The position numbers were made by a program, and so were the translations under genes. The notes under the pieces are model-generated. The model saw only the letters and a program-made list of their open reading frames with translations. It made no database searches and was not told where the DNA came from. From the NCBI RefSeq assembly GCF_025446935.1, contig NZ_JAOEGN010000011.1, positions 1-64,000 of the forward strand: a DNA stretch of 64,000 nt, written 5' to 3'. Numbering within the stretch: position 1 is the stretch's first letter; each line of letters starts with the position of its first letter. Below are positions 12,530 to 20,644 of this stretch, in pieces. The stretch comes from Paracholeplasma vituli (lineage in GTDB: Bacteria > Bacillota_I > Bacilli_A > Acholeplasmatales > UBA5453).

Positions 12530-13612
12530 TTATCTTTTGGGTATATAGTTATCGTGTAAGTTCTTAATGGTTTCAATACGGTTTTTAGCAAATACTTTCG
12601 CAGCTTGTTGTGTATGGATATCTTGAGTTTTCGCAATCTCAAAGATTTGTAATAAACGGTCGTAGATTAATTTAACATCTGCCATGGCTTTTTCTTGTGG
12701 CCAGTTGTTTAATTCAACATACACGTTGATTAAACCACCCGCGTTGATGACAAAGTCAGGCGCGTAAAGAATGCCACGTTCTTTAATCATTGGTCCATGA
12801 ATATCTTCATCTAATAATACGTTATTTGCAGTACCTGCAATGATTTTCGCTTTGATTTGAGGGATGGTTTGATTATTCAATACACCACCTAAGGCACATG
12901 GTACAAATACATCCACATCCATGCTATAAACTTGATCTGGGTTGACAAATTCGACTTCAGGATGTTCTTGTTTCATTCTTTCAATATACTTTGGATTAAT
13001 TTCTGAGAAATAAACTTTCTTCGCTCCAAGTTCTACTAAGTGGTTGATGAGGTAGTATCCAGTTTGACCTGCACCTTGAACGGCGAAGGTATACTTAGAA
13101 ATATCTTCATCTCCAAAACGGTACTTAAGGGATGCTTTAATACCATATAAAGCTCCTAAGGCTGTAACTGGTGATGGGTTCCCTGATTTGCCTTCTAGAC
13201 CAACAACGAAGTCTGTTTCCATATGGACATAGCCCATGTCTTTTGTGCTGGTGTTGACGTCTTCAGCTGTGATGTATCTACCGTTTAAGGATTGTACATA
13301 ACGCCCTAAGGCTCTGAAGTACGCTTCACTCTTCACTTTGGTAGCGTCCCCAATCAATACAGTTTTACCGCCACCTAAGTTTAGACCTGCCGCAGCTGCT
13401 TTATAAGTCATGCCTCTAGCCAGTCTTAAGCAGTCCATGACTGCAGCATCCTCGGATTCATAATTCCAGATTCTAGTGCCACCAAGGGCTGGCCCTAATG
13501 TGGTGTTATGAATCACGGTGATGCCTTTCAATCCTGTAGTTCTATCGTAGAAATAGACTACTTGTTCATACTTGTGTTTTTCCATGTACTCAAATACTTT
13601 AAAATCATTCAT
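12530..13612 (-). CDS. bcd: Leucine/branched-chain amino acid dehydrogenase
   Basis: This 360-residue enzyme oxidatively deaminates leucine, valine or isoleucine to 2-oxoacids with NAD. The substrate-site lysine lies in ARGMTYKAAAAGLNLGGGKTV, which also carries the family GGGK glycine-rich segment. A Rossmann fold begins at FAVQGAGQTGYYL (GxGxxG). APDFVINAGGLINVY is a leucine/phenylalanine dehydrogenase signature. It is the first gene of the operon that continues with ferredoxin oxidoreductase subunits, so its 2-oxoacid product is passed to that complex. The transcript starts at an extended -10 (13654-13661) and carries a CRE-like sequence over the predicted start site. Confidence 0.9.
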   Translation of the reverse strand: MNDFKVFEYMEKHKYEQVVYFYDRTTGLKGITVIHNTTLGPALGGTRIWNYESEDAAVMDCLRLARGMTYKAAAAGLNLGGGKTVLIGDATKVKSEAYFRALGRYVQSLNGRYITAEDVNTSTKDMGYVHMETDFVVGLEGKSGNPSPVTALGALYGIKASLKYRFGDEDISKYTFAVQGAGQTGYYLINHLVELGAKKVYFSEINPKYIERMKQEHPEVEFVNPDQVYSMDVDVFVPCALGGVLNNQTIPQIKAKIIAGTANNVLLDEDIHGPMIKERGILYAPDFVINAGGLINVYVELNNWPQEKAMADVKLIYDRLLQIFEIAKTQDIHTQQAAKVFAKNRIETIKNLHDNYIPKR

Positions 13613-13634
13613 GTATGTTATTCTCCCTTCGAAA

Positions 13635-13648
13635 TAAAAGCGTTTACA
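13635..13648 (-). promoter_or_regulatory. CRE-like site (catabolite response) at the amino-acid fermentation operon
   Basis: On the minus strand TGTAAACGCTTTTA matches the CcpA consensus TGWNANCGNTNWCA at all but one position. It lies just downstream of the -10 box, over the predicted transcription start, a position at which CcpA represses. No ccpA gene is in the window. Confidence 0.6.
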
Positions 13649-13653
13649 TTGGT

Positions 13654-13661
13654 ATTATAAC
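13654..13661 (-). promoter_or_regulatory. Extended -10 promoter of the leucine dehydrogenase operon
   Basis: On the minus strand TGTTATAAT gives a TG-extended TATAAT. The -35 region (TAATAA) is a poor match, as in several other promoters of this window. Confidence 0.6.
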
Positions 13662-13718
13662 ATAGTTATATCTTTTTTATTACTACTATCTAATCTAGTT
13701 TTGGAGTTTTATGTTTAA

Positions 13719-13747
13719 AGAAAAAAGAAGGTTTTTTTATACCTTCT
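13719..13747 (-). terminator. Terminator of the NERD/helicase unit
   Basis: AGAAGGT (13726-13732) and ACCTTCT (13741-13747) form a stem. On the minus strand a T-rich run (CTTTTTTCTTT) follows. It lies 11 bases after the stop of the 1100-residue gene. Confidence 0.78.
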
Positions 13748-13757
13748 AAGTGTTATT

Positions 13758-16700
13758 TTATCCTAGTTTTTTTATGATCGGTAAATCAGCTGCTGCGAAA
13801 TCATAATTACTCATTTCATCCACAGTCAGCCATTTCGAATCTAAATGCTCAGATATGGTAAGGTCACCATTAACTATCTCACAATTGTAAGCATGCATGG
13901 TTAAAATAAAACCACTATACTCATGGTCAACTGTTGTTATGAATTTATTAACCTTAATATCGGTAGCTAGTTCTTCCTTGATTTCTCTAATTAGCGCTTG
14001 CTGATGAGACTCATTCGCTTCAATCTTGCCGCCAGGAAACTCCCATTTTTTAGCTAACTCCCCTGCATTTTTTCTTTGTGCACAGAAATACTTTCCGTCT
14101 TTTTGAATTACTGCAGCAACCACTTCTATACGTTTTTTCATTTCTTTATACTCCGTTGTTAGTCTATAGTAAATATCTTCTGGTACTTCATGATCTAAGG
14201 CAAGTCTAAAACGAATCGGATTATTCATCTCATAACTCATCACTTTTGCAGTTCCTAGATAGATCATTTTAGTAGTATAATACTTAGTATTTTTACCACC
14301 TTTTTTAACAAAGAGATGGATTTTTATACCACGTTGTTCATGGTTGATTAAATCTTGACCTATAGGACTTTCTTGAGAGGTCTTTCTCATAGACTCCCAC
14401 TGTAATATTTTTCGACTTAAGAACTTATCCTTAAAGTTAATCTCTTCTTTAACATTGCCTTTATCTAGAGTAACAAAAAGGTAGAAATTCTTTTCATATA
14501 AAGACACTCCAGATTGAATAACATGAATACTATCGAATCGTGCAATCTGTGTAACATCCCTTAATTCATATTGATAAAATAGTTTAAAGTTCGGATAGTC
14601 AGAAATCTGTCTTCCAAACTCATGTTGATACCGATTAATCCCGTACTGAATACTATCTGTTACATACTCTTTGAATAGGGGATTACGTAATAATTCATTA
14701 AAATTCGGATCTAAGAAAATACCTTTTTCCGTTTGTATTAGAGGGGATTTAAATCTAGATTTATCAAGACTGGTTAAAAGATCACCAGTTAAATGCTTAA
14801 TCGCATGACTTATATCCTGTTGATCGATTACAGAGATATACTTGTACAATTCATTTTCGATAAATCCAAAGTGAATACTGACTTCATTAATCATCATATC
14901 TAAAATCACGAATTCATGAACTCTCTTGAGCGGTAAAAAGTTATCAATGAAACGGATATACTTCAAAGCATCTGTATTACTTAATAAGTATTCCATATTG
15001 GCATTTTCGTTTACTGAATTTACAAATTCAAAGTAGGATTTCGATTTATCAATGAATCTGACTGGATCAAAACCATCGAATCCAAAATCACTTAGTTTTG
15101 GTAATCTATCTTTCAATTGTCTTTTAACATCAAAGAAAATCTCTTCTAAGTATTCTTTTTTATCAAAATCTGTTTTTTCTAATTGGTTTAGAATGTGTTC
15201 TTTGGATACTCGATCCATTCGAATAAAAGTATCTCCCGGAACACCCATAAAGTCTCTTGAGGTTTCAAGCATGATATCTTCTTTATCATAGGCTCTATCC
15301 CCTGTTAATGCAACAGGAATCATGAAAGAACGATTATGATTACCGATAAAATCAAGTACAGTAAGATACTCTTTTTGTTCATGTAGTCTGAGTCCTCTGC
15401 CTAATTGTTGTGTGAAAATGATCGGTGATTTCGTAGGTCTAAGCATTAAGATCAAGTTTAAACTCGGTATATCAATACCTTCGTTTAGAATGTCTACAGC
15501 GAATATGTAACTTAGTGAATGAGTGTTATCCTCGAGTTGTTCAATATACATATCACGAAGAAACTCTGAATCATCCTTGGTGAGTGCTACGGCAGATAAA
15601 CCACGTAAGTTAAACTGTTCAGCCATGTACTGTGCGTGTTTAATGTTTGCACAAAAACCAATCGCTTTGGTTTTGTTACCGCTATGCCCATACTTATTAA
15701 TATTTTCAACGATGAGATTAACTCTAGCCTTAATATTAAGTCTTTCAGCCATTTCATCGATGTCTTTGGAAATATCAATGCCTTCATAATCTGTAACAAT
15801 ATCTGTAATACCAAAATAATGGAAAGGTACTACAAGTTTTTCACCTAAAGCATCTCTTAACCGTATCTCAGCAGCAACCTGATTATCGAATAGCTCAAAA
15901 ATACTGTTAGCATCAGTTCGTTCTGGTGTAGCCGTAAGGCCTAATAAGAACTTAGGTGTAAAGTGTTTAATTACCTTCAAGTAAGTTGGTGCAGCAGAGC
16001 GGTGTGCTTCATCGATCACGATATAATCAAAAGTATCGGGTTTGAGTTGGTAAAGATTGTCATTTCTACTAATAGTTTGAATAGAAGCGAACACATAATC
16101 TGAATCCAAGGATTTGTGATTACCAGTATAAAGTCCGGTTTTGACATTTAGGATATTTCTAAATGTTTTTTCTGCCTCCTTTAAGATTTTTTCTCTATGA
16201 ACGATAAATAATAAGCGTTTTGGATTGACTTGAAGTGCATCAAACGCGGCAAGATACGTTTTACCTGTCCCTGTGGCTGCAATTACTAATCCCTTATCTG
16301 AACCCAGTTCTCTAAGGTTTTTTAATGATTCTAAGGCTTTTTCTTGCATGGGATTCGGTTTAATATCCAAACCAAGTCCATTGTTATAAATGACTTCTTT
16401 AACCTCTTCCGGTGATATATCATAGCTTTCAACGATTCGATTGATTAAATCGGTATCTACGTTATCTTTTAGGAACTCCGCAAGCTCTTTAAATATTTGT
16501 TGCTGATTAACCTTAGAGTATTTGTTCGAATTATACGCCAGCTCATATTCCTTGATATAATCTTCCGTTAATGGAATAACGTTATCTTCATCAAACCAAA
16601 GATCCTCAAACTCCGATCGGACGTTTTGAATTACTCGAGAATTCTGATTTGAATAGTAGGTCATATTCCATTCATGATTACTTTTGAGTGCATTAGATGT

Positions 16701-17060
16701 TAAGTTTGACGACCCTATAGTGACTTGAGTGTCCTCATCTCGCGTAAAGTAATAGCCTTTGGTATGGAAACCTCTGTTGTTATTTTTTAGAGTAGAATAT
16801 ACTTTAACTTGAATGTTATTAAAACTTAAAAGTCTTCTTAGTGCTTTAGGGTCGGTACCAAACATATAATCCGACGTGATAATTCTACCTTTCACACCTC
16901 TTTTTTGAGCATCACAGAACGTATCTGTGAGTAATTGAATTGCGGCATCCGATATAAAAGCAACCGAAAAATCGAAAGATTTGGCACTTTCGATGGATGA
17001 TATTAAATGAAAATAGAAATTGTTGTTACTTTCGTTACTTATGAACCGGACTTGTCCCAT
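13758..17060 (-). CDS. PLD nuclease - SF2 helicase - DUF3427 - Nudix fusion protein
   Basis: This large four-part protein has 1100 residues. Residues 1-165 are a phospholipase-D-like nuclease domain with one HKD-type motif (H99-x-K101, then GSSN 116-119 and E130). Residues about 235-620 are a superfamily 2 helicase with Walker A ATGTGKT (262-268), DEAH (350-353), TATP (376-379) and motif VI QQLGRGLR. The region near 820-965 fits DUF3427 (conserved TSQESPIGQDLINHEQRG and IHLFVKK). The C-terminal 130 residues are a MutT-like Nudix domain with EFPGGKIEANE and REIKEELA; the last Gly of the Nudix box is Ala. PLD/helicase/DUF3427 proteins occur in bacterial defence contexts. The Nudix fusion and the NERD partner 8 bases upstream make this unit notable. 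A role in degrading or restricting foreign nucleic acid is inference. Confidence 0.9.
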   Translation of the reverse strand: MGQVRFISNESNNNFYFHLISSIESAKSFDFSVAFISDAAIQLLTDTFCDAQKRGVKGRIITSDYMFGTDPKALRRLLSFNNIQVKVYSTLKNNNRGFHTKGYYFTRDEDTQVTIGSSNLTSNALKSNHEWNMTYYSNQNSRVIQNVRSEFEDLWFDEDNVIPLTEDYIKEYELAYNSNKYSKVNQQQIFKELAEFLKDNVDTDLINRIVESYDISPEEVKEVIYNNGLGLDIKPNPMQEKALESLKNLRELGSDKGLVIAATGTGKTYLAAFDALQVNPKRLLFIVHREKILKEAEKTFRNILNVKTGLYTGNHKSLDSDYVFASIQTISRNDNLYQLKPDTFDYIVIDEAHRSAAPTYLKVIKHFTPKFLLGLTATPERTDANSIFELFDNQVAAEIRLRDALGEKLVVPFHYFGITDIVTDYEGIDISKDIDEMAERLNIKARVNLIVENINKYGHSGNKTKAIGFCANIKHAQYMAEQFNLRGLSAVALTKDDSEFLRDMYIEQLEDNTHSLSYIFAVDILNEGIDIPSLNLILMLRPTKSPIIFTQQLGRGLRLHEQKEYLTVLDFIGNHNRSFMIPVALTGDRAYDKEDIMLETSRDFMGVPGDTFIRMDRVSKEHILNQLEKTDFDKKEYLEEIFFDVKRQLKDRLPKLSDFGFDGFDPVRFIDKSKSYFEFVNSVNENANMEYLLSNTDALKYIRFIDNFLPLKRVHEFVILDMMINEVSIHFGFIENELYKYISVIDQQDISHAIKHLTGDLLTSLDKSRFKSPLIQTEKGIFLDPNFNELLRNPLFKEYVTDSIQYGINRYQHEFGRQISDYPNFKLFYQYELRDVTQIARFDSIHVIQSGVSLYEKNFYLFVTLDKGNVKEEINFKDKFLSRKILQWESMRKTSQESPIGQDLINHEQRGIKIHLFVKKGGKNTKYYTTKMIYLGTAKVMSYEMNNPIRFRLALDHEVPEDIYYRLTTEYKEMKKRIEVVAAVIQKDGKYFCAQRKNAGELAKKWEFPGGKIEANESHQQALIREIKEELATDIKVNKFITTVDHEYSGFILTMHAYNCEIVNGDLTISEHLDSKWLTVDEMSNYDFAAADLPIIKKLG

Positions 17061-17068
17061 AATATCCT

Positions 17069-17809
17069 CTATTCTGTTTTAATTAATTCCTCTATATCTT
17101 CAATGTGTTTTGCTTTAACTTCATCCGAGGCGAGTGTCGCTTTTTCAAGTTTTAATATCATTGAGATGACTTCATCATCTGTGAAAATATCTGGTTTCTT
17201 TTTATACTGTGATTTTATAAATTTATGAAGATCATTTAACTGGAATAAATATTTATCTCCCGAATCAACCTTAGATAACTTAGAACGATTAGAGAACACT
17301 ACTACTGGTGTAATCCTCGATTGTTCGAGTTCTAAGTAATCCTCAATCGCTTTGGTGTGTGCGTAGTTTTGTCTAAATGGATTATAGAATGTATTCTTAC
17401 TAAAACGATTTAATACCTGTGTCCAATACTCATCTTTATAAGAACCATATATATACCCGCCATAATTCTTCATTTCAAAGACATAAATGCCTTTTTTTGT
17501 TACTGCGACCATATCAACCTCAGTTTTTTCTGTATTTTGTGAATCTAAATATAGATTAGTTAATACCTGATCTTTATGGAACTTACGGAGTAGTTTCTTA
17601 TACAATTTAAACTCACCATAATGACCTTTATCAAATAAGGTTGATAAAAGTTTATGACCAGATTTAACCTTATACTTAGATGTATAAAATGTGATAACAT
17701 CAAATAAAAACATTATAAGTCTCATTAATACATAGATTAACGAATAAATGATGTATACAACCATTTCTAGTAATACATCAAATGGGGATTGTCTTCTACG
17801 TCTTGACAT
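17069..17809 (-). CDS. NERD-domain protein with N-terminal membrane anchor
   Basis: This 246-residue protein begins with basic residues (MSRRRRQ) and hydrophobic helices at about 12-45. These are followed by a nuclease-related (NERD) domain. Visible NERD features are the GHYGEFKLYKKLLRKF helix, then TEKTEVDMVAVTKKGIYVFEMKNYGG with the PD-(D/E)xK-like D-x(n)-E-x-K core (EVD...FEMKN). A C-terminal KLEKATLASDEVKAKHIEDIEELIK helix closes it. It is the first gene of a two-gene unit with the PLD/helicase/Nudix fusion, 8 bases apart. A membrane-tethered DNA nuclease acting with the helicase is the simplest reading, but this is not shown. Confidence 0.85.
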   Translation of the reverse strand: MSRRRRQSPFDVLLEMVVYIIYSLIYVLMRLIMFLFDVITFYTSKYKVKSGHKLLSTLFDKGHYGEFKLYKKLLRKFHKDQVLTNLYLDSQNTEKTEVDMVAVTKKGIYVFEMKNYGGYIYGSYKDEYWTQVLNRFSKNTFYNPFRQNYAHTKAIEDYLELEQSRITPVVVFSNRSKLSKVDSGDKYLFQLNDLHKFIKSQYKKKPDIFTDDEVISMILKLEKATLASDEVKAKHIEDIEELIKTE

Positions 17810-17864
17810 GAAAAGCCTCTTTCTAAAATTGATAAATGATTGCTTATTTATACTTACTGATTCA

Positions 17865-17873
17865 ATTATACCA
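17865..17873 (-). promoter_or_regulatory. Extended -10 promoter of the NERD/helicase unit
   Basis: On the minus strand TGGTATAAT provides a TG-extended TATAAT. It lies 56 bases upstream of the NERD start at 17809. The -35 region is poor. Confidence 0.55.
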
Positions 17874-17880
17874 GGTTAGA

Positions 17881-17910
17881 AATAAAAAAACCGTAACTAA
17901 TTTACGGTTT
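17881..17910 (-). terminator. Terminator overlapping the DsrE-like stop codon
   Basis: AAACCGTAA (17888-17896) and TTACGGTTT (17902-17910) form a perfect 9-base-pair stem. On the minus strand TTTTTTTATT follows. The stop codon at 17902-17904 lies inside the first arm. Confidence 0.87.
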
Positions 17911-18207
17911 TATGTATGCGTAGCCTTGATTCTGTAAAAACACAATCTGATAAACCCCACTCTTAGTGAGTTCAGTGCCTTGGAGTAATTCTCTTGGATT
18001 AAGATTTCTAGTTACTAATGAATTCTCACAAATGTAGTATTTAACATTGGGTTCGAGTTTGACTGTCGATTTAATGAACAATTCGACTGCCTCTGAGTTG
18101 ATTACAACTGCAACCTCCATGTTTGGACTGGCTTGTAAAATGTTTTTGACGTTCATAGATAATAGTGGCCATTTGTGACGTTCATCAATATGGAATAATG
18201 CTTTCAT
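17902..18207 (-). CDS. DsrE/DsrF-like family protein
   Basis: This 101-residue single-domain protein has the DsrE-like fold pattern. An N-terminal strand (KALFHID) comes first, then an ILQASPNMEVAVVINSEAVELF segment, and a Cys in KYYICENSLVTRNL at the position of the family active-site cysteine. SGVYQIVFLQNQGYAYIKP closes the domain. Family members carry sulfur or act in redox chemistry, but single orphan copies such as this are mostly uncharacterised. It follows the GH5 gene by 9 bases and is probably cotranscribed with it. Confidence 0.78.
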   Translation of the reverse strand: MKALFHIDERHKWPLLSMNVKNILQASPNMEVAVVINSEAVELFIKSTVKLEPNVKYYICENSLVTRNLNPRELLQGTELTKSGVYQIVFLQNQGYAYIKP

Positions 18208-18216
18208 AGGTTCTCC

Positions 18217-19221
18217 TTATTCAAAATGATTAGGTAATAAATGATGTTCAATCATACGTCTGAAGTCCCAATGCAAATGGGATTCACGGTCAATCTTATA
18301 ACTCCAGAAATAAAAGCCAAACGCTTGGTTATAGACATAAAGCTGAGTATCGGCTAAGAGTCTTACAAATAGGTTCTTTGTAAAGGTGTCTTTAAAGTTT
18401 AATGGGCCTTCACGTAAACCTAAAGACCATTCACCGATGATGACTCTAACAAACTTAGAGATTTTTTGAATCATGTGGTGACGTTCTTCAAAGACTGTTT
18501 TAAGGTGGGTATCGGTGTCGCTATTGGCGAGTTTGTCATCAAAACAGTGGTATAAGTGTAAGTCGAATGCGACATTCTCTTTACCTTTAAAGAAAGATTC
18601 CCAAACTGGTAAAGTCGGTCTGAATGCGTCATGAAACACAATCAGTTTAGAGGTAATCTTGCGAATCGCTTGATAGCTTCTTTGGTAAAAATCTAAGATG
18701 ATGTTGATATCTATTGAACTATGTGGTTCATTTAATACTTGAATGCCTAAGAAGGCTTCTTCTTCGTGATAAAGTTTCGTTAAGGTTTCTAGTACTTCAA
18801 TGGTTTTATCGATGTTTTTGGGGTCTTTTGGCCAGTCGATGACGCCGGTAATACCGCCATTATCAAACCCGTTTTGACAACCAGGTGCGGTATGTAAATC
18901 GACTAAGATTTGAATACCGTATTTTTTTGCGTATTGAAACGCTCTATCGATGTGTTCTTTAGACCTGTGGTAAAGGTTTGTACCTAAGAACCACCAAGGT
19001 ACAGGTAAACGAACTTGAGTGATGCCTTTATCTTTAAGATATTTAAAGTCTGCTTCTGTAATGAAAGTTTGATAGTGTGCCTCTAAGGCTTCATGGGGAT
19101 TCGGATGAAATTCCATAAAGTGGGTTTCATCGGGTCCTTTGAGTCCTTCAAATAAAGCTGGTCTCATCCACGATTCTAAGACAAACCAACCACCTAAATT
19201 AACGCCTTTAATGATTGCCAT
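18217..19221 (-). CDS. Glycoside hydrolase family 5, exo-beta-1,3-glucanase-like
   Basis: This 334-residue TIM-barrel glycosidase has no signal peptide. GVNLGGWFVLESWMRP at the N-terminus is characteristic of GH5 exo-beta-1,3-glucanases. The catalytic acid lies in GIQVLNEPHSS (E of NEP) and the nucleophile in RVIIGEWSLG (E of GEW). Other active-site features are the conserved Arg in TQVRLPVPWW, and HLYHCF. The lack of a secretion signal suggests hydrolysis of imported oligosaccharides or glycolipid-linked sugars in the cytoplasm. The ribosome site is AGGAGG. The upstream TGATATAAT at about 19240 is an extended -10 promoter. Confidence 0.88.
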   Translation of the reverse strand: MAIIKGVNLGGWFVLESWMRPALFEGLKGPDETHFMEFHPNPHEALEAHYQTFITEADFKYLKDKGITQVRLPVPWWFLGTNLYHRSKEHIDRAFQYAKKYGIQILVDLHTAPGCQNGFDNGGITGVIDWPKDPKNIDKTIEVLETLTKLYHEEEAFLGIQVLNEPHSSIDINIILDFYQRSYQAIRKITSKLIVFHDAFRPTLPVWESFFKGKENVAFDLHLYHCFDDKLANSDTDTHLKTVFEERHHMIQKISKFVRVIIGEWSLGLREGPLNFKDTFTKNLFVRLLADTQLYVYNQAFGFYFWSYKIDRESHLHWDFRRMIEHHLLPNHFE

Positions 19222-19372: not shown

Positions 19373-20644
19373 CTACACACCAAATAGGTTTGTACGCTTA
19401 GGTATGTTCACACCTTTAGTCCCTATCCATAAGGCATCGGGATTACCTTTTCTAATCATGTTTAATGACGCATTTTGGTCAGCATTAATCAAAGTGCCTT
19501 TTTTACTTCTATATAAACCTCTTTTAATTCTAGTTCCAGAGAAATCGCCTTTAACGAATTCATCTTGGTCCATATATGAAGCTTTTGATGTGTACGCTTC
19601 ATTAATTACTTTAGTCTCAATACCTAATTGTTCTGCTAGATAGATGATTCGATCTCTTAATCTAGCGATGGGTATACTTTTAGTCCACTGATTATACGTA
19701 TCCGATAGTCTTTCATCTTTGAAGGTATCGTTATAACCAATGATGATTTGTTTTACCTTATTCTTAACTGCGTGACTCATAATGAGTTTAGCTGCTTTAT
19801 AGATTCCATAATCCATTTGATGGTTACGTTTATCCATTAGACGAATCATTTGTTTCGTTAAGCCATTATGATTAGGTCTAATGCTAGCTAGCTTGGCTAT
19901 CCGCTTATGATAAAACTGATTCATGCTTTTCAATCGTTTACCATCAATCAATAAGTGCACATTGTTCGTAGTTGAACAAAACGCTAGGTTGTTATACCCA
20001 AAATCAATCCCCATGATTTCTGTATAATCTTTGGTTTCTATTTTAAGGGTTTCATCTATATAGACATAAATCACTTCAATGTACTTTCCATCATAATAGG
20101 ACTTGATGGTGATTTCTTTGATTGGTTTGTTTTGGATACATTCTGGTGTTTGGATGTCTAAAGATAAATCACTTAAATGGTTTAATTCGCTTGTGTGCTT
20201 GTGAATCTGTTTTGAATCCTTTTCTAGTTCTTTCGATACTTTCTTGATGAAGTTACTTCTAGGTAAGGTATAGACTTCATGATTTGGTTTATAGACCATT
20301 CGGTCATAGATGGGATAATGGGTGTCTTTCTTTAAGTATCTCGGAAGTCTGATGGTTTGTTTAACGTTAGACTTCAATAATCCAAAGAAGCCTTTCATCG
20401 CTTCATCGACTTTACGAATGACCATTTGACCTTGAGTGGTACTTAAGTAACGATAGTGTTCACTGTCTTTGAGTAGTTGATAGTTTTCGTTATAGGATAA
20501 GTAGCCATTGGTTTTTATAAAATGTTGTCTTACATTATAAAGGGCTTGATTATAGAGACTTCTTGAAGCACGCATTAAAGATAATATAAACTGATGTTGA
20601 TTTGAATTAAGATAGAGTCTTGTTTTAAGGGCTTTATAAGGCAT
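19373..20644 (-). CDS. tnpB: TnpB, RNA-guided RuvC-like nuclease of an IS200/IS605-type element
   Basis: This 423-residue full-length protein starts MPYKALKTRLYLNSNQHQF, typical of OrfB N-terminal helix-turn-helix domains. The RuvC catalytic triad is visible: D214 in MGIDFGYNN, E349 in VINEAYTSKAS and D389 in NADQNAS. The four-cysteine zinc ribbon normally found between the last two motifs is absent. Its place is taken by DEFVKGDFSGTRIKRGLYRS, a sequence type seen in one known branch of OrfB proteins. An extended -10 (TGGTATAAT, 20671-20679) precedes the start. The intact triad suggests the protein can cleave DNA. Confidence 0.93.
   Translation of the reverse strand: MPYKALKTRLYLNSNQHQFILSLMRASRSLYNQALYNVRQHFIKTNGYLSYNENYQLLKDSEHYRYLSTTQGQMVIRKVDEAMKGFFGLLKSNVKQTIRLPRYLKKDTHYPIYDRMVYKPNHEVYTLPRSNFIKKVSKELEKDSKQIHKHTSELNHLSDLSLDIQTPECIQNKPIKEITIKSYYDGKYIEVIYVYIDETLKIETKDYTEIMGIDFGYNNLAFCSTTNNVHLLIDGKRLKSMNQFYHKRIAKLASIRPNHNGLTKQMIRLMDKRNHQMDYGIYKAAKLIMSHAVKNKVKQIIIGYNDTFKDERLSDTYNQWTKSIPIARLRDRIIYLAEQLGIETKVINEAYTSKASYMDQDEFVKGDFSGTRIKRGLYRSKKGTLINADQNASLNMIRKGNPDALWIGTKGVNIPKRTNLFGV

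Follow-up and report, generated by a model that had tools for sequence, protein, structure and literature searches.

Two adjacent genes and a SauUSI-type enzyme

We analysed a stretch of 64,000 nucleotides from Paracholeplasma vituli (assembly GCF_025446935.1, contig NZ_JAOEGN010000011.1, positions 1 to 64,000; hereafter the window), in which two neighboring open reading frames (ORFs) on the minus strand encode a membrane protein with a NERD domain and an 1100-residue protein that carries PLD nuclease, SF2 helicase-like, DUF3427 and Nudix domains (Table 1). A preliminary description, made from the letters of the sequence, had proposed the pair as an uncharacterised two-gene defence module. Its account of the layout holds up well. 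Both ORFs are present, Pfam matches all four domains of the larger protein, and the motif residues H99, K101, N119, E130, K267 (ATGTGKT), DEAH350, TATP376 and QLGRGLR552 are all in place. The smaller protein combines its NERD match with an N-terminal hydrophobic stretch. A terminator placed at 13719-13747 corresponds to a terminator-like hairpin, found in a scan that returned 6 hairpins against 2.7 ± 1.8 in shuffled sequence; an extended -10 element placed at 17865-17873 was not returned by a consensus promoter scan. The NERD stop and the start of the larger gene are 8 nt apart, so the two ORFs are likely carried on a single transcript.

SauUSI is a type IV restriction enzyme of Staphylococcus aureus. 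Its PLD domain is the nuclease and its SF2 domain the motor; the C-terminal DUF3427 region holds an SRA fold, the predicted site of 5-methylcytosine (m5C) flipping, and DNA is shredded between modified sites (PMC7913695). It cuts DNA containing 5-hydroxymethylcytosine (hm5C) as well as m5C (PMC3874153). Residues 1-970 of the window protein match the SauUSI structure (PDB 7clg, E=9e-161) and the PADLOC type IV model mREase_IV (E=5e-164), with nuclease, motor and DUF3427/SRA following one another in one chain as in SauUSI-type IV enzymes. The catalytic His and Lys of the PLD domain, the Walker A Lys and the DE of motif II are invariant in 56/56 homologues, the window's among them. When the window DUF3427 is aligned to the SauUSI target-recognition domain, the equivalents of F841, D858 and W868 are kept, and the predicted m5C pocket differs by I842 to V, M829 to Q and Y831 to V. 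By order of domains, matches and catalytic residues the window enzyme is shown, at the level of sequence, to belong to the family of SauUSI-type IV (5-methylcytosine-dependent) restriction enzymes. The preliminary description was thus right to see a defence gene and wrong to call it uncharacterised, as the family has a known structure and mechanism. Its spread is patchy: DUF3427 proteins occur in 18/61 relatives and in 66 of the 395 genomes that make up the class sample, which rules out a housekeeping repair family present in all relatives. The viral contigs searched gave distant helicase matches only. One homologue, of 1465 residues (L105:4462-8859), has an N-terminal extension of about 470-500 residues with no Pfam match, and no Nudix gene nearby.

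Table 1. Positions of genes, domains and other features at the window locus
Feature	Position	Strand	Matches and remarks
SauUSI-type IV restriction enzyme with C-terminally fused Nudix hydrolase, 1100 residues (predicted)	13758..17060	-	
PLD nuclease domain, residues 20-155 (H99, K101, N119, E130)	16596..17003	-	PF13091 (PLDc_2) 1.4e-16
SF2 helicase-like motor, residues 233-559 (K267, DEAH 350)	15384..16364	-	PF04851 (ResIII), PF00271 (Helicase_C)
DUF3427, residues 706-968: coupler part and SRA-fold target-recognition domain	14157..14945	-	PF11907 2.4e-54
Nudix domain, NudG-like, residues 974-1100 (Pfam NUDIX 976-1098)	13761..14141	-	PF00293/PF14815, PADLOC PDC-S07 2e-50, NCBIfam PRK10546
GGAG, 9 nt ahead of the ATG (14141) of the former Nudix gene	14151..14154	-	kept in L022, L023, L027
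Membrane NERD protein, 246 residues	17069..17809	-	PF08378 6.8e-27
Terminator-like hairpin 3' of the fusion gene	13726..13747	-	
Terminator-like hairpin upstream of NERD, between it and the DsrE-like gene	17887..17911	-	

A NudG-like Nudix gene is a conserved partner of SauUSI

We scanned the DNA around the DUF3427 genes of the class sample and the relatives with a Nudix family model, which had been seeded with some of the SauUSI-linked Nudix proteins themselves; 66 loci had a usable SauUSI ORF. The model is selective, matching in 101/395 genomes at E<=1e-22 in a genome-wide search, mostly once per genome. In 49 of the 66 loci the Nudix gene lies within 200 nt of SauUSI or is fused to it, where chance would give about 0.04, and in two further loci it lies 0.4 and 2.2 kb away. 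Of these 49, 27 are downstream and 11 upstream of SauUSI on its own strand, 9 are convergent with it, 1 is divergent and 1 is fused; in one of the downstream cases (L032) the SauUSI gene that the Nudix abuts is split. Along the SauUSI tree the arrangement changes state at least 17 times. The pairwise distances of SauUSI and Nudix also correlate (Mantel r=0.46, 0/2000 permutations); part of that correlation is shared descent, and the adjacency kept through rearrangements is the stronger point. At the level of whole genomes, the Nudix gene is present in 56/66 with SauUSI and 34/329 without it (p=9e-34, a guide only as the genomes are not independent). Together these observations show that the NudG-like Nudix gene is a conserved partner of the SauUSI-type enzyme.

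The same pairing is found in further sequences. A Staphylococcus aureus contig (OR845003.1), deposited as a Staphylococcus phage and probably bacterial chromosome sequence, encodes a 953-residue SauUSI nearly identical to 7clg (2066 bits). One nucleotide upstream of it is a 133-residue Nudix protein that equals, bar a few residues, PDB entry 5x1x, which is annotated as MutT. S. aureus strain 333 has the same gene order, with SauUSI interrupted. On annotated plasmids of Hymenobacter and of the lactobacilli L. plantarum, L. curvatus and L. fermentum, a gene annotated as (deoxy)nucleoside triphosphate pyrophosphohydrolase occupies the Nudix place. A MazG-like ‘nucleotide pyrophosphohydrolase’ lies downstream of SauUSI, in addition to the Nudix gene, in L. 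plantarum and L. fermentum (L218:5311-5631, L231:5121-5432). Similar MazG-like genes occur near L024, L107 and L159.

Nearly every relative with both has them as separate genes, with the Nudix reading frame overlapping or directly adjoining the end of SauUSI. The junction measures 18 nt in the window and 19 nt in three species of the same genus, and the loss of this one base appears to have placed both genes in one frame. The former Nudix start codon and the GGAG ahead of it remain in the window, so free Nudix protein may be made from the internal start as well. As a recurrent architecture the fusion was rejected, the window being the sole fused case among the 66 loci; a metagenome-assembled Glaciecola genome that a first contig scan had suggested as a second case has its Nudix beside SauUSI as a separate upstream gene. 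A homopolymer sequencing error is a less likely cause, as the nearest relative (L023) has an A6 run of the same length and the changed position adjoins the run.

A chromosomal hotspot and the NERD gene

The locus occupies a hotspot (window 12530-19221; L232, L233, L234, L235, L027) flanked on one side by GH5/DsrE genes and on the other by a dehydrogenase/2-oxoacid:ferredoxin oxidoreductase operon. In genome G004 it holds SauUSI and Nudix alone, and in G006 it holds NERD, SauUSI and Nudix, with NERD and SauUSI in the same order as in the window, plus a zeta-like AAA protein. In G001 the hotspot holds two m5C methyltransferases with a Z1 protein, in G002 an m5C methyltransferase with a MutH-domain protein, and in G003 it is empty. 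In sister species, then, the same site is occupied either by a system that makes m5C or by one that attacks it. The window's own genome also has several m5C-type methyltransferases (two with a 368-residue protein on contig C41, and C33; L211:6464-9778, L212:1-6673). The window SauUSI must therefore tolerate those host marks, and the host has its own source of m5C nucleotides. We also asked whether SauUSI carriers avoid m5C methyltransferases; strong PF00145 matches occur in 3/17 carriers and about 14/44 non-carriers, a weak difference in the expected direction that we do not use as evidence. Beyond the pair lies the tnpB element of the preliminary description, an ORF of IS200/IS605 type at 19373-20644 that matches NCBIfam guided_TnpB; in G006 the TnpB is missing at the corresponding place and a 336-residue protein is found instead.

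The preliminary description had read the NERD protein and the fusion as a functional pair; in such a dedicated two-gene module NERD might serve as a membrane-bound nuclease against the foreign DNA that the fusion attacks. The NERD domain (residues 61-173 of 246) has PD-(D/E)XK-like residues E66, D99 and E112-x-K114. The spacing in the window and the shared gene order in G006 are as a module would have them, and a NERD gene also lies near a Pseudoalteromonas SauUSI homologue. By Pfam, however, 5/69 genomes have a NERD gene no more than 2 kb from SauUSI or its Nudix, which is above chance (about 0.2 expected) and rare, and the other 64/69 have none nearby; side-by-side pairing is not regular. 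NERD orthologues of the window type lie near SauUSI in G006 and G044, lie elsewhere in G005, G030 and G032, and occur in G028 and G050 with no SauUSI in the genome. The sister genome G004 (L234) has SauUSI and Nudix at the corresponding site and no NERD there; a second contig of that genome (C14) carries GH5/DsrE genes followed by NERD. On this distribution and the G004 site we rejected NERD as a dedicated SauUSI partner, and the two-gene module is very improbable. NERD is an occasional neighbor, a passenger at a defence hotspot.

The role of the Nudix hydrolase and its place among known systems

We reasoned that the residues of the Nudix partners might hold clues as to their substrate. The catalytic glutamates E53, E56 and E57 (MutT numbering) are invariant in 46/46 SauUSI-linked partners, and the position of MutT Asn119 is Asp in 46/46, as in NudG. 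The best reported substrate of NudG is 5-methyl-dCTP (kcat/Km 1.3e6 M-1 s-1, versus 4.7e4 for CTP; PMC5158307). The window Nudix scores 110.7 bits against the curated equivalog cut-off of 156 bits for NCBIfam PRK10546, and because it falls below that cut-off we class it as NudG-like by sequence and not as NudG itself. The suggestion in the preliminary description that the Nudix acts on modified nucleotides is very likely right.

Two other substrates can be weighed against these residues. The Nudix could be a general cleaner of oxidised nucleotides such as 8-oxo-dGTP and 2-OH-dATP, limiting mutation after DNA shredding or stress, or simply a hitchhiker in defence islands. Its membership of the MutT/NudG family, the activity of E. 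coli NudG on 2-OH-dATP (PMC5158307) and the MutT annotation of the S. aureus protein would fit such a cleaner. However, the replacement of MutT Asn119 by Asp in every partner speaks against it, hitchhiking leaves immediate adjacency in 49/66 loci and five arrangements unexplained, and neither accounts for the association of Nudix with other modification-type nucleases described below, so we consider this improbable. Still more improbable, to the point that we give it little weight, is a regulatory role in which the Nudix controls SauUSI by processing a signalling nucleotide or an ADP-ribose-like alarm. Nudix domains do occur in conflict systems based on NAD+ and ADP-ribose (PMC7159879), but the sequence here is of the MutT/NudG (NTP pyrophosphohydrolase) type rather than the ADPRase type, and SauUSI is active without a partner both in vitro and in E. 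coli (PMC3874153).

A qualitative survey of Nudix relatives in genomes with no DUF3427 protein (about 45 loci, with no controlled count) bears on the nature of the association. High-scoring relatives lie beside DUF3427-less PLD-SF2 proteins that the type IV model recognises (L155, L163, L191), and adjoin MrcB_N/NOV_C proteins (L159, L164), HNH proteins (L158, L169) and a helix-turn-helix protein with a weak AspBHI_N match (L157). A 466-residue protein in which Nudix is followed by NOV_C (L165:3847-5247) is an independent Nudix-nuclease fusion. In another locus the family Nudix is fused to a cytidine deaminase domain (L173:4659-5459), which suggests that modified cytosine nucleotides are processed in two steps. 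Among the 15 top-scoring relatives in genomes lacking SauUSI, about half sit with modification-type nucleases, and low-scoring relatives lie mostly by housekeeping genes. The presence of Nudix relatives beside these other nucleases therefore points to an association with modified bases rather than with SauUSI as such. In one further locus a high-scoring Nudix gene is overlapped by that of a 399-residue protein with no Pfam or PADLOC match (L154:3830-5029), a candidate for an unrecognised modification-dependent nuclease.

We propose, with a probability of roughly 0.55, that the window encodes a SauUSI-type IV module in which the Nudix is the self-protection half, cleaning the nucleotide pool, and NERD is a separate passenger. 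By analogy with SauUSI, the enzyme would bind modified-cytosine sites through its SRA-like domain, translocate and shred the DNA. Salvage of degraded methylated DNA, whether from phage, plasmid or host m5C sites, would return modified dCTP to the pool, its incorporation would put m5C at random places in the chromosome, and the host would then be attacked by its own enzyme. The Nudix would hydrolyse 5-methyl-dCTP, and perhaps 5-hydroxymethyl-dCTP, to the monophosphate and so keep m5C nucleotides from being scattered through the chromosome. It would thereby supply the protection in a restriction system from which a methyltransferase is absent.

The main rival to self-protection is that the Nudix is a second weapon, destroying the 5-methyl- and 5-hydroxymethyl-dCTP of phages that replace their cytosine and thereby blocking both modified DNA and escape by means of it. 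This reading shares the linkage evidence (49/66 loci; 56/66 versus 34/329 genomes) and the residue evidence (46/46), and it fits the cleavage of hm5C DNA by SauUSI (PMC3874153), the listing of Nudix by PADLOC as a stand-alone defence candidate, PDC-S07, and the occurrence of Nudix relatives apart from SauUSI. A weapon, however, should commonly be carried alone and unlinked, and about half of the top 15 relatives found apart from SauUSI sit with modification-type nucleases. Two weapons would be useful apart, whereas protection is needed exactly at the nuclease. On balance we regard the weapon as unlikely.

Several points weigh against self-protection. The linkage would be explained just as well if the Nudix attacked the nucleotide pools of phages. 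Of the 66 SauUSI loci, 15 have no Nudix in the DNA examined (4 of them at contig ends), and so the Nudix is not strictly required; nor was one found at the DUF3427 loci examined on proteobacterial and actinobacterial plasmids. The NudG-type Asp fits a cytosine substrate but does not prove one, and our searches turned up no substrate assay of a Nudix linked to SauUSI. Finally, the residue equivalent to Tyr831 of the SauUSI pocket is Val in the window, where m5C specificity is a prediction.

The argument may extend to type IV enzymes more widely. They may often be two-part systems, in which a nuclease for m5C or hm5C is accompanied by a dedicated pyrophosphatase that keeps modified dCTP from entering the host's DNA and thereby prevents autoimmunity (usually a NudG-like Nudix, in some cases fused to a cytidine deaminase, or else a MazG-like protein), with 5x1x of S. 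aureus as the unrecognised partner of SauUSI; we place this tentative generalisation somewhat short of even odds. Type IV enzymes are usually viewed as lone nucleases, with no safeguard other than that the host leaves their sites unmodified. Were a conserved pool enzyme linked to them, discrimination of self from non-self would be guarded at the level of deoxynucleoside triphosphates too, and the pool enzyme would be to type IV restriction what the methyltransferase is to ordinary restriction-modification. Such a link would give a place to 5x1x, whose structure is solved, and would open to experiment one of the main obstacles to gene transfer into S. aureus; the Nudix gene could also flag unrecognised modification-dependent nucleases, such as the 399-residue L154 protein.

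A literature search, with most subscription journals outside it, found no paper proposing SauUSI and Nudix as a system, and on a Nudix or MutT role in type IV restriction it found a single figure legend. That figure (Fig. 9 of PMC7641849) draws Streptococcus SauUSI-MutT neighborhoods, the same gene pair almost without comment, and its legend names a ‘DNA repair’ neighbor; unlike the present analysis, it is a mention in a legend, with no survey, mechanism or fusion. PADLOC PDC-S07 is the same Nudix family (2e-50), but the model has no description and no partner or mechanism attached. In E. coli, NudG belongs to the chromosomal housekeeping genes. The window Nudix resembles that CTP/5-methyl-dCTP pyrophosphohydrolase (NudG/Orf135, PDB 2rrk) in the Nudix box, the Asp at the MutT Asn119 position and a clear overall similarity (5.6e-27), but the SauUSI-linked Nudix genes are patchy and tied to restriction genes. 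SauUSI itself (PDB 7clg) shares with the window enzyme the order PLD-SF2-coupler-SRA(DUF3427), the catalytic residues, most of the predicted m5C pocket and a Nudix neighbor in S. aureus. It differs in that the S. aureus Nudix is separate and upstream rather than C-terminally fused, in the pocket changes Y831 to V and M829 to Q, and in an overall sequence similarity that is moderate. The enzyme is a known one and the fusion a one-base variant.

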